Assembly (NCBI GenBank): GCA_028377305.1
Contig: JAONJW010000004.1
Location: forward strand, 1 to 64,000
Direction of reading: 5' to 3'
Origin: Prolixibacteraceae bacterium
Lineage (GTDB): Bacteria > Bacteroidota > Bacteroidia > Bacteroidales > Prolixibacteraceae
DNA: 64,000 nt
The translations under genes were made by a program, and so were the position numbers. The stretch's first letter is position 1, and each line of letters begins with the position of its first letter. Under the pieces are notes generated by a model, which was not told the DNA's origin, ran no database searches, and saw only the letters and a program-made list of their open reading frames with translations. Positions 6,821 to 19,232 of this stretch are shown one piece after another.

Positions 6821-7825
6821 TTATTTTTTTGTAAATATATATTTTACTTGTTCAAAATAGTTATTGGAAGAAGTATAAATAAAGGTACCACCTGAATACT
6901 TTTGTTCCATCGAATACTTTGAATTTCCGAGCAATCGTTCATATAGATTATACCCACTAGTTGACGACTTATATATGAATGTTGGACCAAGATCATACAA
7001 TTCCAATTCACCTTCGATTGCCAATGCAACACCAAAGTGGGCTTGTACTACGAGTGTTCCTATGTCACCAATATATTTACCTGAAATTGTCATCTTCCTA
7101 CCATCCTTTACAATCTTGACATCGACAGGATCAGTATCAACCCAAGAAGAGTTTGTTGTGTCATAATATGAACCAACCAAACTATAATCACCGGATTCAA
7201 TCATGTTCTCTGCTCCTAAAATTGAATAGTCAATAGTTGGATTAAATATAACATACCCAGTCACATTGTTTGTATAATTATCAATAGTTTTAACGACTTC
7301 TTCATCAATCATCACAGGATCTCCATTCTCATCCAATACTTTATTCCCATCTTCATCAGTCTTATTCTGCTGTTCAATCACCGTATACGTAGTATAACGT
7401 TTAAGAACAGTTCCAGATTCTAGTTTAATGTTATCACCTGAAACATTAATGGTACATCCAGGCAGATTATTCTTATCAACAGCATCCCCAAATAAATCCT
7501 GTAAATCTTTATATGAAAACGAAACCTTGACTGGCATCTCTTTTACATTGGTCAATGTTTTGGTCATTTCTTTACCTTCGAGAGGTCTAAACTTAACAAT
7601 AACATCCATTGAATAAAAAGCATCAGGGAAACGACTAATCATATTGAGATCCAATTCAAACACCGTTTCATCAATATCAGAAAGAACAATATCTAGGGTC
7701 TTTCCTTCAGGCAATTGAAAGTTTGGGAAACTAGCATACTGGTCTGTTTCTAGATCATTTATTATCTCTCTTTCACACGCAAATAGAGACAAAGCTACTA
7801 TCAGTGACAATATTATTTTTTTCAT
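6821..7825 (-). CDS. SusC/D-associated surface lipoprotein, uncharacterised
   Basis: MKKIILSLIVALSLFACERE lipobox; last gene of the minus-strand susCD cluster. Confidence 0.7.
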   Translation of the reverse strand: MKKIILSLIVALSLFACEREIINDLETDQYASFPNFQLPEGKTLDIVLSDIDETVFELDLNMISRFPDAFYSMDVIVKFRPLEGKEMTKTLTNVKEMPVKVSFSYKDLQDLFGDAVDKNNLPGCTINVSGDNIKLESGTVLKRYTTYTVIEQQNKTDEDGNKVLDENGDPVMIDEEVVKTIDNYTNNVTGYVIFNPTIDYSILGAENMIESGDYSLVGSYYDTTNSSWVDTDPVDVKIVKDGRKMTISGKYIGDIGTLVVQAHFGVALAIEGELELYDLGPTFIYKSSTSGYNLYERLLGNSKYSMEQKYSGGTFIYTSSNNYFEQVKYIFTKK

Positions 7826-9473: not shown

Positions 9474-12400
9474 TTAGAATGAGAATTTTAGATTAAAAGA
9501 GATTCGTCTTAACGAAGGTGCCGAATTGAAGGACATACCCTGGTTATTACTCGAAGAGAAAGAGTTTACTTCTGGATCAAAATTCGTATGTTTAGGGAAG
9601 CCTGGGGCATAATAGAATAGATTGTTCGCAAGCACACCCAAGGTTGCTGAACTAAATCCGATTTTATCGACCCAAGCATCTGGTATATCATAAGATAAAG
9701 AGAGTTCTGATAGCCTATAAACCGTTGCATCATAAACTTTAAATTCATCATAAGATCCATTTCCCATACCACCGTCTTCAAAATAGTATTCATTGGAAGT
9801 TATTTGAATGCGATTGGGAATGGTATTACCATTCATATCCAAAAGTGGCTTAGCTGTGTTTGGATCTCCCAGAACTCCTGGAATAACATGATTGCGTTCT
9901 CTATCTTCAGTATCCTTTGTCACACCTCTTCCTAGCAGCTGTGGAACGACGGTAGTATACATCTCTCCACCACAAGTTGCATTTATGACAGCGCGCATAC
10001 TTAATCTTTTATATCTTAAGGTATTGGTTATTCCAAGAAGGTAATCTGGATTAGGATCTCCTAAAATGGTTTCCTCTTTAGACTCAATCATCATACCAGT
10101 TTGAGGATGAATCAAGATATTTCCATTATCATCTCTTGCTGCACCATAACCTTTAAAGATACCGTAAGGGTGACCCTCCATAATATAAGAGTGAATACCA
10201 TTTGAATAGATATTTCGTATATTCGTTTCAGATAAACCATCCACAAGCTTCACGACCTCATTTTTATTTCTACTATATACGGTGAAAATATTCCATGAAA
10301 AATCTTTAGTTCTTATTGGTGTCAGATCCAAAGAGAGCTCTATACCCTGATTCCTCATCTCTCCTACATTGGTTAAACTAAAATAGTAACCAGATTCTTC
10401 CGGAATAGAAACCCTCATAATTTGATCTGTAGAAGATTTATCGTAATAGGCCATATCTAAAACCAAGCGGCTATTAAAGAGCTCCAGATTCGTACCAATC
10501 TCAAATTCTGTTGTAAACTCTGGCTTCAGATCTAAATCTGCTGTATCATAATTTGGAACCATCATGCTCGTTCCTTTAAATGGGAAACTGGTATATCGAA
10601 CAGCTCCAATAGAACCATTGTTAGAGTAATTCACTCGATATTTTCGAGCAATCTCATATTCATCTGCATCATTACCGACCTTTGCCCAAGAGGCCCGAAC
10701 TAAACCAGAGTTAAAGAAAGAACTCTTTAGATTCAATGCATCACTGAACACAAATGAGGCAGATAGCGATGGATAAAGGTAACTATTGTTATCTTTTGGA
10801 AGGGTCGAAGACCAGTCTCTACGACTTGTTGCGGAAAGCGTTAGATAGTTATTAAAACCCAGCGATGCTTCACCAAAAACGGAAAATAATCGTCTTTCAC
10901 TTGAGGAACTATAACCTTCGGTATCCTTAATATTACTTAACTCATAGATACCTTGTATAATAAATGGATTTCCATACGCCTGCAGAACCCTATAAGTTCT
11001 GGTATTAAACGCCTGCCCCAAGGTTAACCTTAAATTTATTTTGTCAGTTATATTTCTTCGAAAGTTAAGCATTGCTGCACCTTCAAGTTCTCTATTGAAC
11101 CTATCAAACATATTCATTTTACCTAGCTTATCTTTTAGCACATTACTAGAGACATCTACAACTTTTTTTGTAGATCGAATCAACTGGTTCACGCTGAATT
11201 GGTAAGATAATGAGAGGTAATCTGTGATATCCCATTGCGGTTTAACACTTGCCACAATACGATGTTGTTCTTCCGCTCCATAGTTGTATTTAAAAGACCA
11301 TAATGGGTGATCCGTCTCTTTAAAATATAAGTTTTCTTTATTCAGCCCCTCGAAGGGCAAGGAGGTATTCCACGATCTACCCGCATAAAGCAAGTTCCTA
11401 AAAGCTCCTAAATTACCTTCTATAGGGCTTCTTTTTTCGATAAAAGCGTACTGAAGATTTGTACTGACTTTAAACCTCTTAGCTACTTGTGAGTTAACCC
11501 CTAAGGAAATAGTAGTTCGATTAAAGAAGTTGTCTGGAATATACGAATCTTGTCTCATATCAGAAACAGTTAGAGACATCGACGTTTTTTCTCCTCCACC
11601 AGAAATATTAACAGAGTTGTCCCACAGAGAACCCGTTCTCAACATATTCTTTATATTATCAGGCTGAGGCTCATACGGCATCTCTGCAGTATACTTTTCC
11701 GGATAAGCTTTTTGCCACACATCTGTATAAACCAATTTATCCACATCTGAATATCTAGCTCCCCATGACCCCCAATAGTTCGCAGCTTTAAATTCACCCC
11801 CATTCCCGTAAGTATTTTGGTAGTCAGGTAAAGATGCAACTTGTTCCACGCTATATGAAGAACTCACGGTAGTTGTAAACTTCTGTCCTGTTCTTGAGGC
11901 TCCAGACTTAGTGGTGATGATAATCACCCCGTTGGCTGCCCTTGACCCATACAGAGCAGAAGCTGCAGCTCCTTTCAAGATTGTTTGTGATTTGATATTA
12001 TTGGGATCAATAGAAGCCAATACTCCCATATCCATCGCCTTAGTGCGAATACCTCCACTGTTCTGATCATTTGAAAATGGAACCCCATCCACAACAATCA
12101 AAGGCTGATTATTTCCCTTAAATGAAGAGGCACCTCGGATTACAATTCTTGTAGGACTACCCGCGGTTGACTGTGATCCCGAAATCTTCACACCAGCAAC
12201 TTTACCTTGAAGTCCTTTGATTGCATCTGTTTCAGCTTTCATAGCCACTTGATCTCCTCCAACTTCAGAAACAGCATAGGTTATTGATTTAGCCGACTTC
12301 TTAATCCCCATCGCTGTTACAATAACATCATCCGTAACAATCGCATCCTCCTTCAATCTGACTTTGAACTTAACTTTTTTCCCAATTTCTATCAATTCTG

Positions 12401-12638
12401 TCTTCATTCCAACATAAGTGATACTTATATTCTTTGCACTATCAGGGACTTTTAGCTGAAATTTACCTTCAAAATCGGTCACTGTTCCTACAGTCGTTCC
12501 TTCAACGACTACTGAAGCACCTGGAATAGGAGAACCATCTTCAGCTGAGAAAACCTCACCTGTTAATATCCGGGACTGTGCCCAAGAAGTGCTTATGCCT
12601 ATAAAGAGACATAGCATTAGTAGTAATACTCGATTCAT
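9474..12638 (-). CDS. SusC/RagA family TonB-linked outer membrane protein
   Basis: 1054 aa; carboxypeptidase-like domain, plug motifs (PLIVVDGVPFSND, GSRAANGVIIITTKSG), C-terminal beta strand ending in SFNLKFSF. Confidence 0.95.
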   Translation of the reverse strand: MNRVLLLMLCLFIGISTSWAQSRILTGEVFSAEDGSPIPGASVVVEGTTVGTVTDFEGKFQLKVPDSAKNISITYVGMKTELIEIGKKVKFKVRLKEDAIVTDDVIVTAMGIKKSAKSITYAVSEVGGDQVAMKAETDAIKGLQGKVAGVKISGSQSTAGSPTRIVIRGASSFKGNNQPLIVVDGVPFSNDQNSGGIRTKAMDMGVLASIDPNNIKSQTILKGAAASALYGSRAANGVIIITTKSGASRTGQKFTTTVSSSYSVEQVASLPDYQNTYGNGGEFKAANYWGSWGARYSDVDKLVYTDVWQKAYPEKYTAEMPYEPQPDNIKNMLRTGSLWDNSVNISGGGEKTSMSLTVSDMRQDSYIPDNFFNRTTISLGVNSQVAKRFKVSTNLQYAFIEKRSPIEGNLGAFRNLLYAGRSWNTSLPFEGLNKENLYFKETDHPLWSFKYNYGAEEQHRIVASVKPQWDITDYLSLSYQFSVNQLIRSTKKVVDVSSNVLKDKLGKMNMFDRFNRELEGAAMLNFRRNITDKINLRLTLGQAFNTRTYRVLQAYGNPFIIQGIYELSNIKDTEGYSSSSERRLFSVFGEASLGFNNYLTLSATSRRDWSSTLPKDNNSYLYPSLSASFVFSDALNLKSSFFNSGLVRASWAKVGNDADEYEIARKYRVNYSNNGSIGAVRYTSFPFKGTSMMVPNYDTADLDLKPEFTTEFEIGTNLELFNSRLVLDMAYYDKSSTDQIMRVSIPEESGYYFSLTNVGEMRNQGIELSLDLTPIRTKDFSWNIFTVYSRNKNEVVKLVDGLSETNIRNIYSNGIHSYIMEGHPYGIFKGYGAARDDNGNILIHPQTGMMIESKEETILGDPNPDYLLGITNTLRYKRLSMRAVINATCGGEMYTTVVPQLLGRGVTKDTEDRERNHVIPGVLGDPNTAKPLLDMNGNTIPNRIQITSNEYYFEDGGMGNGSYDEFKVYDATVYRLSELSLSYDIPDAWVDKIGFSSATLGVLANNLFYYAPGFPKHTNFDPEVNSFSSSNNQGMSFNSAPSLRRISFNLKFSF

Positions 12639-12982
12639 AGATGTATCATATTTGATTTATACATAGATATAATTGACCCTCCTTACTTAATTAAGGAAGA
12701 GTTAACTTCTATTGCAAAAAGAGGAGAGAATCATTATCACTAATGAAAATTTTGTCCCTAAAATCATGCATCTATGAAATATAGCATACATACCTCTCCT
12801 CTTAAATATTCTATTTTGACACGTAAAATGAGTAACACTAAGAATAGAGAGGAAATTTTCTTTTGAAAATTTTGTAGAAGAATATAATAATCGTAAAATT
12901 ACCGCATAAACTAAAGTACGGGAAGTTATATTCTTATACTTCTCACTTTGACCCAGGTCCGCCAACCTGGGTTTCTTTTTGT
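12634..12982 (-). promoter_or_regulatory. Putative structured 5' leader of susC locus 1
   Basis: Contains arms AAGAGGAGAG/CTCTCCTCTT (12794-12803 / 12719-12728) followed by a T-run, and segments 12769-12778 and 12761-12766 complementary to the susC start region 12634-12643 and 12653-12658. The same layout occurs upstream of the second susC. Confidence 0.55.
12951..12982 (+). terminator. Intrinsic terminator on the strand opposite susC
   Basis: ACCCAGGT-ccgcca-ACCTGGGT followed by TTCTTTTTG on the plus strand; no plus-strand CDS precedes it. Confidence 0.75.
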
Positions 12983-15154: not shown

Positions 15155-18100
15155 TTAAAATGACACATCTAATCCCAAAGAGAGCACTCTTGAAGGAATA
15201 AACTGGTTACTTGTAGTACCTGCAAAAGATTCTTGAGGATCCATTCCTTTACGCTTTGAGAACAAAAACAAATTCTCTCCTGTAGCATAAACACGCACCT
15301 TATCAAGACCAATACCATTCAACATTGATTTGTCAAAAGTATAGCTTAAGGTTACATTCTTCAATGCAAAGTAAGAAGCATCTGTCAACCAACGAGATGA
15401 AGTTGGTGATAGATTAGGGTTATCCTTTTCTAAGCGAGGGACACCTGTAATATCACCCGGACTTCTCCATGCTTTAAGTTGATCGACATGCATACCAGAT
15501 CCAAGATCTTGAGAATTCATTAAACCAGCATAATTATAATCCAGAATCTTTCCACCAACGGAATAGGTTGCCAAGATCGAAAGATCAAAATTATGAACTT
15601 TCAAATTAGAGGTAATCGATCCATAAAAGTCAGGTATAGAGGTAGCATCTACATAGCCTTTTCCGGCCTTTGTATAATCCGAGACAAGAATAGGATCGCC
15701 ATTGGCATCTAATTCTCTTACGCGTTCTCCATTGTCTCCGTCCATATATTTATAATACAGAGCTTCTCCATTGTCAGGGTTTACCCCATAGTAATCATAA
15801 GTGTAGAAATCATATATAGAACGTCCAATGTCCCAACGTTTCGATCCATTCACAAAAGGATCTGGGATATCGGTAATCTCATTCTTAATGGTTGAAACTT
15901 GGAAATCTGTCGACCATTTTACATGACGCTTATTTATCCAATTAAAGTTCAATCCCAACTCAACACCACTATTTCTCAACGACGCAATATTTCTACTCTG
16001 ACTTAAGAAACCTTGTGATGGTGGAAGAGGCATCGAGTAAAGTAGGCTTTTTGAATCTTTACGATAATACTCTAACGATCCATCAACAAAACCATTGAAC
16101 AAGGCAAATTCCAATGCAAAGTCATAACTCGTATTCACCTCCCACTTTAGGTCTTCGTTTCCAACTGTACTCCAGATAAGTCCCGGACTCGTCCCATTAG
16201 GATTGGTACCATATAGTGCCTGTGAAGCATAGAAAGCAGAAGAAGAAGTTCCTAGTCTATCGTTTCCTACTTCACCTATTGATGCTCGCAGCTTTAAATT
16301 GTCAACCCAATCTACTTCTTGCATAAAATTCTCTTCTTTGATTCTCCAAGATGCACCTACTGAGTAGAAACCACCCCAACGATTCTTTTTATGGAAAACA
16401 GAAGAACCATCATAACGATAAGATCCTGAGAAGTAGTAACGGTCTTTATAATTATACTCTAACCGTCCCAAATAACTCTCTATGCGCTTCTTGTCTGTAT
16501 AACCATTCAGATTGGTAGGAGTCACAAATTGTGCCAACTCATAAATCCCTTGAGCAATCACCTGTGTTTTGCTCGATGAGATACGCTCGTAGTCATATTT
16601 ATAGCTCTCATGCCCTACCATCAAATTGAAAGAGTGTCCAGCATCAAATGCCTTCTCATATTTCAATAATTGGTTGGCATTGATGGTGGTACTAGTGTAC
16701 CTATTATCCGCAAAACGTCCTGAAGGAGCACCATCTCCTACTATCGTATTCTCAAAATATTGGTACTTATAGTTTCTTACATCAATACCCACATTACTGC
16801 TAAAAGTTAAACCCTCCATCAACTTGATATCTACATTAAAACGATCGCTAATGGTATTGGTCTTTACCTCCTGATTGTTGAAGTTCATTTCTGCAATAAC
16901 ATGACGACCCGGACTAGCTGCCGATGGACGTGAATTGATTCCATATTCCGCATATCCGCCTCCAATATCATACTGCTTTTGACCATTGGCATCCAAGATG
17001 TACTTATTGGTGCCTGGTTCTACTAGATACACAGGATATATAGATCCTACATTTCTAGCAAAACTAAATGGGTTATTATAACTTGAGTTTCCTGTACCCA
17101 CACTAAACTTTGAATTACTAGAGGTAAAGGCTACATTATTACTAATTTTAAGCCAATCATTTACCTTAAAATCAGATGATAATCTTGAATTAAAACGTTT
17201 ATATCCTGTATTCACGATATACCCCTCTTCATCCAAATAACCTACAGACAAAAAGTGAGCACCCTTCTCTCCACTAGTAGAAACATTTGCTGAATAGCTT
17301 TGACGCTTACCTGTTTGCTCCAATGGCTTGAACCAATCTAAATCCGGAGTAATCACTCTTGCTTCAGGATTAACTGTCCCATCTGCCATCATTATTTGGT
17401 CGTTGGCAACATTAAACGGGTTATATCTTAACTTCCCATAAATACCATTCACAGCAAAAGCTTTTGCTTTAACAGGATCAATGGCACTCCCATCTGGAGT
17501 TAGCAATTCGGGCTTAGCATCCGCAGGATTTTGATATAATAATGAATTGTAATATGACTCGGTAGACAACTCATAATAATCTCTTGCTCCCACCTTCTCA
17601 TACTGTGGAATTGCACGGGAAACCACACCATATAATGCTTTAACATTCACCACGGTCTTTTTCCCCTTCTTACCTTTCTTTGTGGTGATCAAAACCACAC
17701 CATTGGCTGCTCTTGATCCATACAGTGCTGCTGAAGAAGCATCTTTCAGAATCGTCATCGATGCAATATCTTCTGGATTAATATCCGAGAGCGTTCCACT
17801 ATAAGGTACTCCATCAACCACATATAGTGGATTAGAATCTCCATTCAGTGACCCAAAACCTCGAATACGGATGGTAGGTGCAGAGCCCGGCTGTCCTGAA
17901 GCTGTTGTAACCTGAACCCCTGTAGTTGAACCCTCTAACGCTTGACTAACACTAGTCAAAGGGCGTGTTTCTAACTTCTCGGCACCCAACACACTTGCCG
18001 ATCCAGTAAAACTAGCTTTCTTAGCTGTACCATATGCGACAACCATCACTTCATCAACATTTACAGCTTCAGATTGTAGCTTAATATCTAAAGAAAGCTT

Positions 18101-18364
18101 ATCTCCGATGATCACTTCCTTAGTTTCTAACCCAATAAAAGAAAAAACCAAGCTCTTTGCTTCCGAAGGAACTTTCAAATTAAACCGACCATCAAAATCG
18201 GTCACCGTTCCGATAGACGTACCTTTCACAATGACAGACGCCCCCGGTATGGTGGCTCCATCTTCTGCAGAGGTCACCACTCCTGAAAGGACTCGTGACT
18301 GTGCTTTTGATTCCAATAGTCCGATGGTAAAAAGGACTACGAACATTAACAATAATCGTTTCAT
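15155..18364 (-). CDS. SusC/RagA family TonB-linked outer membrane protein
   Basis: 1069 aa; SGVVTSAEDGATIPGASVIVKGTSIGTVTDFDG, NPLYVVDGVPYSG, AALYGSRAANGVVLITTKKG, C-terminus RVLSLGLDVSF. Confidence 0.96.
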   Translation of the reverse strand: MKRLLLMFVVLFTIGLLESKAQSRVLSGVVTSAEDGATIPGASVIVKGTSIGTVTDFDGRFNLKVPSEAKSLVFSFIGLETKEVIIGDKLSLDIKLQSEAVNVDEVMVVAYGTAKKASFTGSASVLGAEKLETRPLTSVSQALEGSTTGVQVTTASGQPGSAPTIRIRGFGSLNGDSNPLYVVDGVPYSGTLSDINPEDIASMTILKDASSAALYGSRAANGVVLITTKKGKKGKKTVVNVKALYGVVSRAIPQYEKVGARDYYELSTESYYNSLLYQNPADAKPELLTPDGSAIDPVKAKAFAVNGIYGKLRYNPFNVANDQIMMADGTVNPEARVITPDLDWFKPLEQTGKRQSYSANVSTSGEKGAHFLSVGYLDEEGYIVNTGYKRFNSRLSSDFKVNDWLKISNNVAFTSSNSKFSVGTGNSSYNNPFSFARNVGSIYPVYLVEPGTNKYILDANGQKQYDIGGGYAEYGINSRPSAASPGRHVIAEMNFNNQEVKTNTISDRFNVDIKLMEGLTFSSNVGIDVRNYKYQYFENTIVGDGAPSGRFADNRYTSTTINANQLLKYEKAFDAGHSFNLMVGHESYKYDYERISSSKTQVIAQGIYELAQFVTPTNLNGYTDKKRIESYLGRLEYNYKDRYYFSGSYRYDGSSVFHKKNRWGGFYSVGASWRIKEENFMQEVDWVDNLKLRASIGEVGNDRLGTSSSAFYASQALYGTNPNGTSPGLIWSTVGNEDLKWEVNTSYDFALEFALFNGFVDGSLEYYRKDSKSLLYSMPLPPSQGFLSQSRNIASLRNSGVELGLNFNWINKRHVKWSTDFQVSTIKNEITDIPDPFVNGSKRWDIGRSIYDFYTYDYYGVNPDNGEALYYKYMDGDNGERVRELDANGDPILVSDYTKAGKGYVDATSIPDFYGSITSNLKVHNFDLSILATYSVGGKILDYNYAGLMNSQDLGSGMHVDQLKAWRSPGDITGVPRLEKDNPNLSPTSSRWLTDASYFALKNVTLSYTFDKSMLNGIGLDKVRVYATGENLFLFSKRKGMDPQESFAGTTSNQFIPSRVLSLGLDVSF

Positions 18365-18700
18365 AGATGCATCATATTTGATTTATAAATAGATAGTCAA
18401 ACCTAATTCGTCTTTGACAACGAAAATGGATCCAATAAAAAGAGGAGTGGTACAGTTCTAACTATTGTTTGTTCCCTAAAATCAAACATCTATGAGATGT
18501 AATAAAATTGCACCATCTCCTCCGAATATCAAATAGATTGCTATAAAAAGAAAGTGTAGTACGAAGAAATTATAAGATACAAGTGTGTTATACTTGAATA
18601 ATTGTGATAAAAGAAGTATCTTTCGATCACAACTAGAAAATGCCGATATATTTTCAAAATTGTACTATGAGCCTGGGTCTGCAAACCCAGGTTTTCTTTT
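18361..18700 (-). promoter_or_regulatory. Putative structured 5' leader of susC locus 2, paralogous to 12634-12982
   Basis: Arms GAGGAG-TGGT (18442-18451) and ACCA-t-CTCCTC (18112 offset region 18512-18522), T-run on the minus strand at 18437-18441; CATCTATGA (18487-18495) and AAATCAAA (18479-18486) complementary to the susC start region 18361-18369 and 18377-18384. Confidence 0.55.
18672..18700 (+). terminator. Intrinsic terminator on the strand opposite susC
   Basis: CCTGGGT-ctgcaa-ACCCAGG followed by TTTTCTTTT; same relative position as 12951-12982. Confidence 0.78.
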
Positions 18701-19232
18701 ATAATAGAATCTCACTACTTTAATAATCACTGAATTAACAACTTCAGCGATACCAATACCACATCAAAAAAATTATACATAAATCTCTGTTTGGATATAT
18801 GAGAAAACACATTAGTTGACTCAATTATAAAGTGTCATTTTTTATAGACGCCCTACAACCAAAACAAGACACAATAATCTCTTATTTAATAATAGTATGG
18901 GTATTTATTTCTTAAGGAAAGCTTAATGGAATATCTAAATTGGTTTAGATTTATAGTTTTAAAAGAATCTTATTCAGTTACTCACCAAAAAAGAGACATA
19001 AGCATTAATTATTAACATTATTATTGCAATATATGATAATTTAATACAAAAAACCAAATAAAATGGCACTTTTTGCTCGCATCAAATATATTTTAACACA
19101 AATAAATATCTCTAAAACATTTTATCCCCTCCATTGTTCCGTATAGTTGAGACTATCTGATTGAATTCAATGACGAAACAGACCAGAAGTCGATTCTTAA
19201 TTTTAACTTAACACACAGAATATATTCGCGTT

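Follow-up and report, generated by a model that had tools for sequence, protein, structure and literature searches.

A putative sense/antisense RNA control region ahead of two susC genes in a Prolixibacteraceae bacterium, with leader loops complementary to the start site of another susC

What does the conserved intergenic DNA ahead of two susC genes of a Prolixibacteraceae bacterium encode, and on which strand would it act? The question bears on how Bacteroidota rank dozens of SusCD transporters; at the RNA level, most of what is known has been learned in Bacteroides (DonS, and FopS with RbpB). The window, by which we mean the whole 64,000-nucleotide stretch of DNA analysed, belongs to contig C89 of a 3.16 Mb genome (G000) that is 77% complete, so that further targets of the RNAs considered here may be missing from it. 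A preliminary description of the region had proposed a functional leader RNA built of two helices, A and B, and its coordinates for both helices are correct at every position. The features of the second susC locus are listed below, where C94 is another contig of the same genome.

15155-18364, minus strand: susC homologue 2 (1069 aa), to which the leader belongs; open reading frame with Plug and CarbopepD_reg_2 domains, TIGR04056 at 790 bits
18361-18384, minus strand: genus-specific start-region motif AAATCAAATATGATGCATCTATGA of susC 2, with the start codon inside it; the target site of the antisense seeds
18397-18435, minus strand: hairpin C, in the linker that joins hairpin A to the start site, kept in all seven leaders that have hairpin A
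18437-18441, minus strand: terminator-like T-run directly 3' of hairpin A, found in the five seed-bearing leaders
18442-18523, minus strand: hairpin A from folding, with GGAGGAG...CTCCTC arms around the anti-start loop
18474-18495, minus strand: anti-start loop, or seed, TCATAGATGTTTGATTTTAGGG, a 22-nt two-block complement of the C94 susC start site
18527-18536, minus strand: CTATTTGATA, a promoter-like stretch just 5' of hairpin A that may be the -7 region of susC
18669-18701, plus strand: hairpin T, the putative intrinsic terminator of a predicted antisense RNA, from a terminator scan, its presence in 8/8 homologous leaders and covariation

Read along the minus strand, the second locus thus runs from CTATTTGATA through GGAGGAG, the TCATAGATGTTTGATTTTAGGG loop, CTCCTC, TTTTT and the linker to the start region AAATCAAATATGATGCATCTATGAA, which contains the start codon of susC 2. 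The promoter-like CTATTTGATA is kept only in this leader and in two others, G002a and G003a. Helix A joins GAGGAGTGGT (18442-18451) to ACCATCTCCTC (18512-18522) and, as the preliminary description stated, is followed by a T-run on the susC strand, where AAAAA at 18437-18441 of the plus strand reads as TTTTT on the minus strand. Helix B would pair TCATAGATG (18361-18369) and TTTGATTT (18377-18384) at the start region with AAATCAAA (18479-18486) and CATCTATGA (18487-18495) in the loop. A Prolixibacteraceae MAG with a SusC of 76% identity is the nearest named relative. Elsewhere in the window, a gene of 334 aa follows the first susCD pair (6821-7825, minus strand) and has no convincing Pfam match.

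The first susC locus carries its elements in the same order.

9474-12638, minus strand: susC homologue 1 (1054 aa); open reading frame with Plug and CarbopepD_reg_2 domains, TIGR04056
12635-12658, minus strand: start-region motif, from a motif search
12673-12705, minus strand: hairpin C (z = -2.7)
12716-12801, minus strand: hairpin A and T-run, from folding and a covariance model
12756-12777, minus strand: anti-start loop TCATAGATGCATGATTTTAGGG, -30.2 kcal/mol with the C94 start site
12950-12981, plus strand: hairpin T, the putative terminator of an antisense RNA, found in homologous leaders

SusC 1 and SusC 2 are 44% identical over their N-terminal 242 residues and 24% identical over the barrel and are, by this divergence, old paralogues; the duplication is therefore not a recent one.

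Hairpins A and C favour the susC strand. Summed over the leaders, hairpin A folds at -163.6 kcal/mol on that strand versus -134.7 on the other, and hairpin C, present in 7/7 leaders with hairpin A despite sequence change, at -72.7 versus -57.7 kcal/mol. In all five seed-bearing leaders CTCCTC is followed by TTTTT, TTTCT or TTTTG, and with its G+C-rich stem and a T-run on the same strand hairpin A has two of the marks of an intrinsic terminator or attenuator. Its loop, of about 60 nt with inner structure, is long for such a terminator, and a simple terminator scan missed the hairpin. The ten pairs of helix A are 92% paired across five sequences, with the 5' arm held in register by N padding of the alignment. 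Compensatory differences had been proposed for this helix; they exist at two of the ten pairs, where both sides change with weak shuffle support, while the six core pairs are invariant in the five sequences. A further genome of the genus, G001, has GAGAAG/CTTCTC where the others have GAGGAG/CTCCTC. Hairpins C, in the linker, and T, far upstream, were absent from the preliminary description and show better covariation. Further hairpins lie between T and A, for example at 18540-18665 of the window (CAAGTGTGTTATACTTG), with pairing kept and sequence changed. A small open frame, MFDFREQTIVRTVPLLFLLDPFSLSKTN (18403-18489, minus strand), starts in the hairpin loop and runs over the T-run, and locus 1 has a similar MHDFRDK frame; its length is not conserved.

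How far this element reaches was assessed by pattern, by covariance model and by protein. The loop TCATAGATGnnTGATTTTAGGG, antisense to the susC start region, occurs in both susC leaders, and with up to three mismatches its pattern has two copies in the whole of the bacterium's own genome, both inside the window. Among 119 relatives, real further copies exist only in the same-genus genomes G002 (two) and G003 (one), each upstream of a susC. A covariance model of hairpin A gave five strong matches in 140 family genomes (E 2e-17 to 2e-13), all of them susC leaders of three congeneric genomes, and four weak matches (E 0.01-0.05) that have no susC link and are expected by chance for 140 genomes. 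These matches support a conserved RNA element over a chance repeat. A link to susC was present in every strong match, and the element is no broad Bacteroidota family, its strong matches being confined to three genomes of one genus; both the loop pattern in 119 relatives and the covariance model in 140 family genomes gave nothing convincing outside it, and we rejected the wider family. A SusC protein search of genome contigs returned three loci, one congeneric and two from Tenacibaculum. The comparison set comprises eight homologous susC leaders from four genomes (G000, G001, G002 and G003), of which seven have hairpin A and five the seed loop; those five, from three genomes, share hairpin A, T-run, seed loop, hairpin C and start motif, and all lie upstream of susC. 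The earlier impression that no named Rfam family applies is borne out: neither the window nor the sRNA loci match any family at gathering score, and a search of the leaders up to E = 10 gave no relevant match. A long near-perfect palindrome near a G002 leader (L004 2641-2750, contig G002:C5) is matched only by unrelated microRNA models, and these weak Rfam matches were set aside as irrelevant.

The start region is a motif in its own right. The pattern AAATCAAATAT-N(0-14)-TCTATGA has 22 sites in the four genus genomes, 17 at susC starts and five elsewhere, with none in 115 other genomes and none in a reversed-pattern control, and by this distribution it marks a genus-specific set of susC genes. 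Reading the motif as an antisense promoter (TAnnTTTG) was rejected because its first base misfits most sites and the terminator of the sRNA loci lies within a few bases, and other CCCTAAAATCAAA sites in the genus were discarded because they are not at start sites.

When loop pairing was computed against the start regions of the 29 susC homologues in the bacterium's own genome, the best partner by far of both loops was the C94 susC start, at -28.0 kcal/mol for locus 2 and -30.2 kcal/mol for locus 1, values reached in 0/400 shuffles each (best shuffle about -20 kcal/mol). The predicted duplex consists of 14 contiguous bases, TTTGATTTTAGGGA with TCCCTAAAATCAAA, and a second block, TCATAGAT with ATCTATGA, that spans the start codon. 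Compared with these trans energies, the cis pairing of the loops that constitutes helix B amounts to -14 to -18 kcal/mol. Helix B can be paired exactly where it had been placed, but it is not exceptional in cis (z = -1.0 and -1.6 versus shuffled upstream sequence), and other susC genes score as well in cis duplex energy, on only 20 shuffles each. In the predicted ensemble the seed is unpaired only in part (0.27-0.70). In G000 and G002 both loops are intact and the target TGTCCCTAAAATCAAATATGTAAATCTATGA is present at a syntenic locus. In G003 one loop has a point change, the other has decayed or been lost, and motif and protein searches found no TGTCCCTAAAATCAAATATGTAAATCTATGA-type target; in G001 CCCTA is missing from the syntenic-type target, and the seed from the leaders. 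This co-occurrence of loop and target, a correlation over four genomes with at most two independent losses, supports pairing in trans. The syntenic susC genes of G000 (L141, contig C94) and G002 (L142, contig C4) share the same leader end and 59% identity at the N-terminus, with barrels 29% identical; here the transporter body seems to have been exchanged and the start region kept.

The five motif sites away from susC are reverse complements that adjoin intrinsic terminators. They point to further RNAs with anti-start seeds, to which a third element, found by reading loci, is added below.

C133:23127-23264 of the bacterium's own genome (L047; motif site C133:23209), also L051, L061 and L122: predicted sRNA1
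C133:65734-65794 of the same genome (L048), also L054: predicted sRNA2, with seed and terminator
C98 of the same genome, upstream of 12664 (L046 and L030), also L063: predicted sRNA3, the third element

Predicted sRNA1 combines a 5' hairpin whose sequence varies with the seed TCATAGATTTTATATTTGATTTG and a terminator; it occurs in 4/4 genus genomes, the G001 copy being found by model R2, and is syntenic beside a sulfatase-like neighbour in three of the four. Just upstream of it, in all four genomes, stands TGTAAC-N16-CGTC, which fits an ECF sigma promoter; within the genus the pattern is also found ahead of envelope-protein genes and of a gene for an ECF sigma factor, a modest enrichment of 11 matches versus 4 in a reversed control. 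The stop codon of a gene for a beta-barrel outer-membrane protein immediately precedes predicted sRNA2. Predicted sRNA3 lies in the 3'UTR of the operon of the upstream C98 susC (C98a), whose last gene ends ...KLWWDVN, and combines the seed TCATAGATTTACATATTG with a strong terminator; the best partner of this seed is again the C94 susC start (-21.5 kcal/mol, 0/300 shuffles).

The other strand has a conserved element of its own. Hairpin T (CCCAGG..CCTGGG) is found in 8/8 homologous leaders, spelled quite differently in G001; three of the four genomes have no other copy. Five of its pairs covary, with nine cells changed on both sides, a number of cells reached in 0/500 shuffles. Of the cells, 85.4% pair on the plus strand versus 78.1% on the minus strand, the difference arising because minus-strand mismatches are G-U pairs on the plus strand, where the T-run also lies. 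At locus 1 hairpin T stands between two minus-strand genes, so that only an antisense transcript could use it. This covarying plus-strand terminator indicates a predicted DonS-like antisense RNA, and the earlier picture of a sense leader alone had to be given up. We conclude that both strands probably carry RNA, a structured susC leader on the minus strand and an antisense RNA on the plus strand.

Our preferred interpretation, held with slightly less than even confidence, is that the region is a susC sense/antisense RNA control region that acts partly in trans, its leader tuned to a rival susC. The susC transcript would start near GGAGGAG and fold hairpin A, ending in the T-run, and some transcripts would stop there, freeing a leader RNA of about 85-95 nt whose loop presents the anti-start seed; it is the T-run that suggests termination at hairpin A and release of the small RNA. 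The seed would then pair with the start region of the competing C94 susC mRNA and block its translation, and more weakly with its own and the sister susC start sites, while read-through transcripts would serve as susC mRNA. On the plus strand, an antisense RNA ending at hairpin T and complementary to the leader would either neutralise the leader or repress susC as DonS does. We infer where transcription starts, that it terminates at hairpin A, that the leader is released and blocks translation, and in which direction the effect runs. What the analysis itself shows is that parts of the region are conserved, that loop and start site are complementary, that loop and target occur together, and that the plus-strand terminator covaries. 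The reading has a published precedent in the FopS sRNAs (PMC11697453) and is also favoured by the predicted folding of hairpins A and C, which is better on the susC strand, and by sRNA1, sRNA2 and sRNA3, independent predicted RNAs that would direct equivalent seeds at the same start sites. Against the reading count the loop of about 60 nt in hairpin A, the invariance of its core pairs among five sequences, a seed that is predicted to be only partly unpaired, and the small number of genomes, four, that the co-occurrence covers.

These observations could also be accounted for by a leader that acts in cis, with the loop of hairpin A pairing with its own mRNA start region in a pseudoknot that hides the start codon, perhaps under the control of a ligand, an antisense RNA or transcription speed. 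The complementarity exists at both loci and in all seed-bearing homologues (-12.5 to -17.3 kcal/mol), and hairpin C would draw loop and start region together. However, any seed that targets the shared start motif is automatically complementary in cis, the cis energy falls among the values given by shuffled upstream sequence and by other susC genes, and half of the seed, TTTAGGGA, has no partner at its own start site and is paired at C94. We rejected the cis pseudoknot as the main function on these energies, and a cis leader as such seems unlikely to us. It is similarly improbable that the plus-strand antisense RNA does the work by itself, as in DonS-type systems, with the conserved blocks of the susC strand as its mere shadow. 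Terminator T is there in every leader, including the seedless G001, and Bacteroides has many DonS-like antisense RNAs that run divergent to susC (PMC7366714, PMC10994844); yet the preference of hairpins A and C for the susC strand, the T-run of A on that strand and a seed that is complementary to the C94 start site only as read from it would then be left aside. Nor does a role of the antisense RNA as a decoy help this explanation, since its pairing with sRNA1 or sRNA2 is weak (-11.7 to -15.5 kcal/mol versus about -24 for real targets), and we discarded the decoy.

We give very little credence to a leader peptide encoded in the loop (MFDFREQ... / MHDFRDK...), whose translation would govern termination at hairpin A. 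At locus 2 a frame of 28 aa begins at an ATG within the loop, and the first residues are similar between the two loci, but frame lengths range widely (about 9 to 28 aa), G002b has GTG as its start, changes alter amino acids, and TCATAG before the ATG is conserved as much as the frame. Shared descent without function appears hardly more plausible: the leaders would be alike as parts of old duplicated N-terminal blocks of susC, and the greater likeness of the SusC N-termini (44%) than of the barrels (24%) suggests that leader and N-terminus may have been copied as a block. That explanation sits poorly with a seed, arms and start motif that are nearly invariant where the rest of the leader can hardly be aligned, and with antisense seeds to the same motif in unrelated loci.

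Returning to the sense/antisense reading, its broader form is that susC operons of this genus cross-regulate by a shared antisense code in which TCATAGAT-type seeds face a common susC start motif. The seeds would be carried by susC leader loops, by the 3' ends both of susCD operons and of a further outer-membrane gene, and by an ECF-controlled sRNA. We regard such a code as somewhat less likely than not. Importer genes may silence one another through RNA, and a seed in one susC leader that matches the start of another suggests that a distant relative without detectable RbpB has a layer comparable to that of Bacteroides. If true, there would be direct RNA crosstalk between importer operons: translation of other transporters would be shut off when one is made, or under envelope stress, and the leader loop, derived from a 5'UTR, would act as a regulator tuned to a single rival. 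The reading predicts the seed, its target and their paired losses.

Among known systems, the closest are those of Bacteroides, where antisense RNAs of the DonS type lie divergent to susC and act as its repressors (PMC7366714, PMC10994844), by a mechanism described for DonS as unknown (PMC11697453), and where translation is repressed by FopS sRNAs that bind close to susC start codons and are antagonised by RbpB (PMC11697453). The predicted antisense RNA resembles DonS in being divergent to susC, in overlapping the leader (in 8/8 leaders, given an antisense start inside or before the leader) and in having its own terminator; it would differ in its predicted length, up to about 220-330 nt versus the 78-128 nt reported for the DonS type, and in facing a sense strand with its own conserved hairpin and anti-start seed. 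The likeness to the RbpB-associated FopS/GibS RNAs of Bacteroides thetaiotaomicron lies in a seed antisense to the susC start, here in the loop, sRNA1, sRNA2 and sRNA3, in several paralogous RNAs with one common seed and, as with FopS-14, in the 3'UTR origin of two predicted RNAs. Compared by seed position, our case differs in that the seed is also built into a susC leader loop, and the promoter of sRNA1 is ECF-type, not sigma-ABfr; an RbpB-like RRM_1 domain (PF00076) was found in 0/4 genus genomes, with a positive Bacteroides ihuae control. By analogy the region would work like DonS and FopS regulation, though we do not claim membership in either family. The pairing of an ECF-type promoter with a seed antisense to outer-membrane transporter starts in predicted sRNA1 calls to mind a further class of regulators. 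MicA and RybB are envelope-stress sRNAs that repress outer-membrane proteins; they belong to another phylum, and ECF control of sRNA1 is suggested by TGTAAC-N16-CGTC only. The Listeria SreA riboswitch RNA is a trans-acting terminated leader, and here too a terminated 5' leader would base-pair in trans with another mRNA, although the susC leaders have no known ligand-binding domain and Rfam finds no riboswitch in them. New with respect to all of these are a susC leader that contains the seed, the match of that seed to another susC and the ECF-type promoter of a related sRNA.
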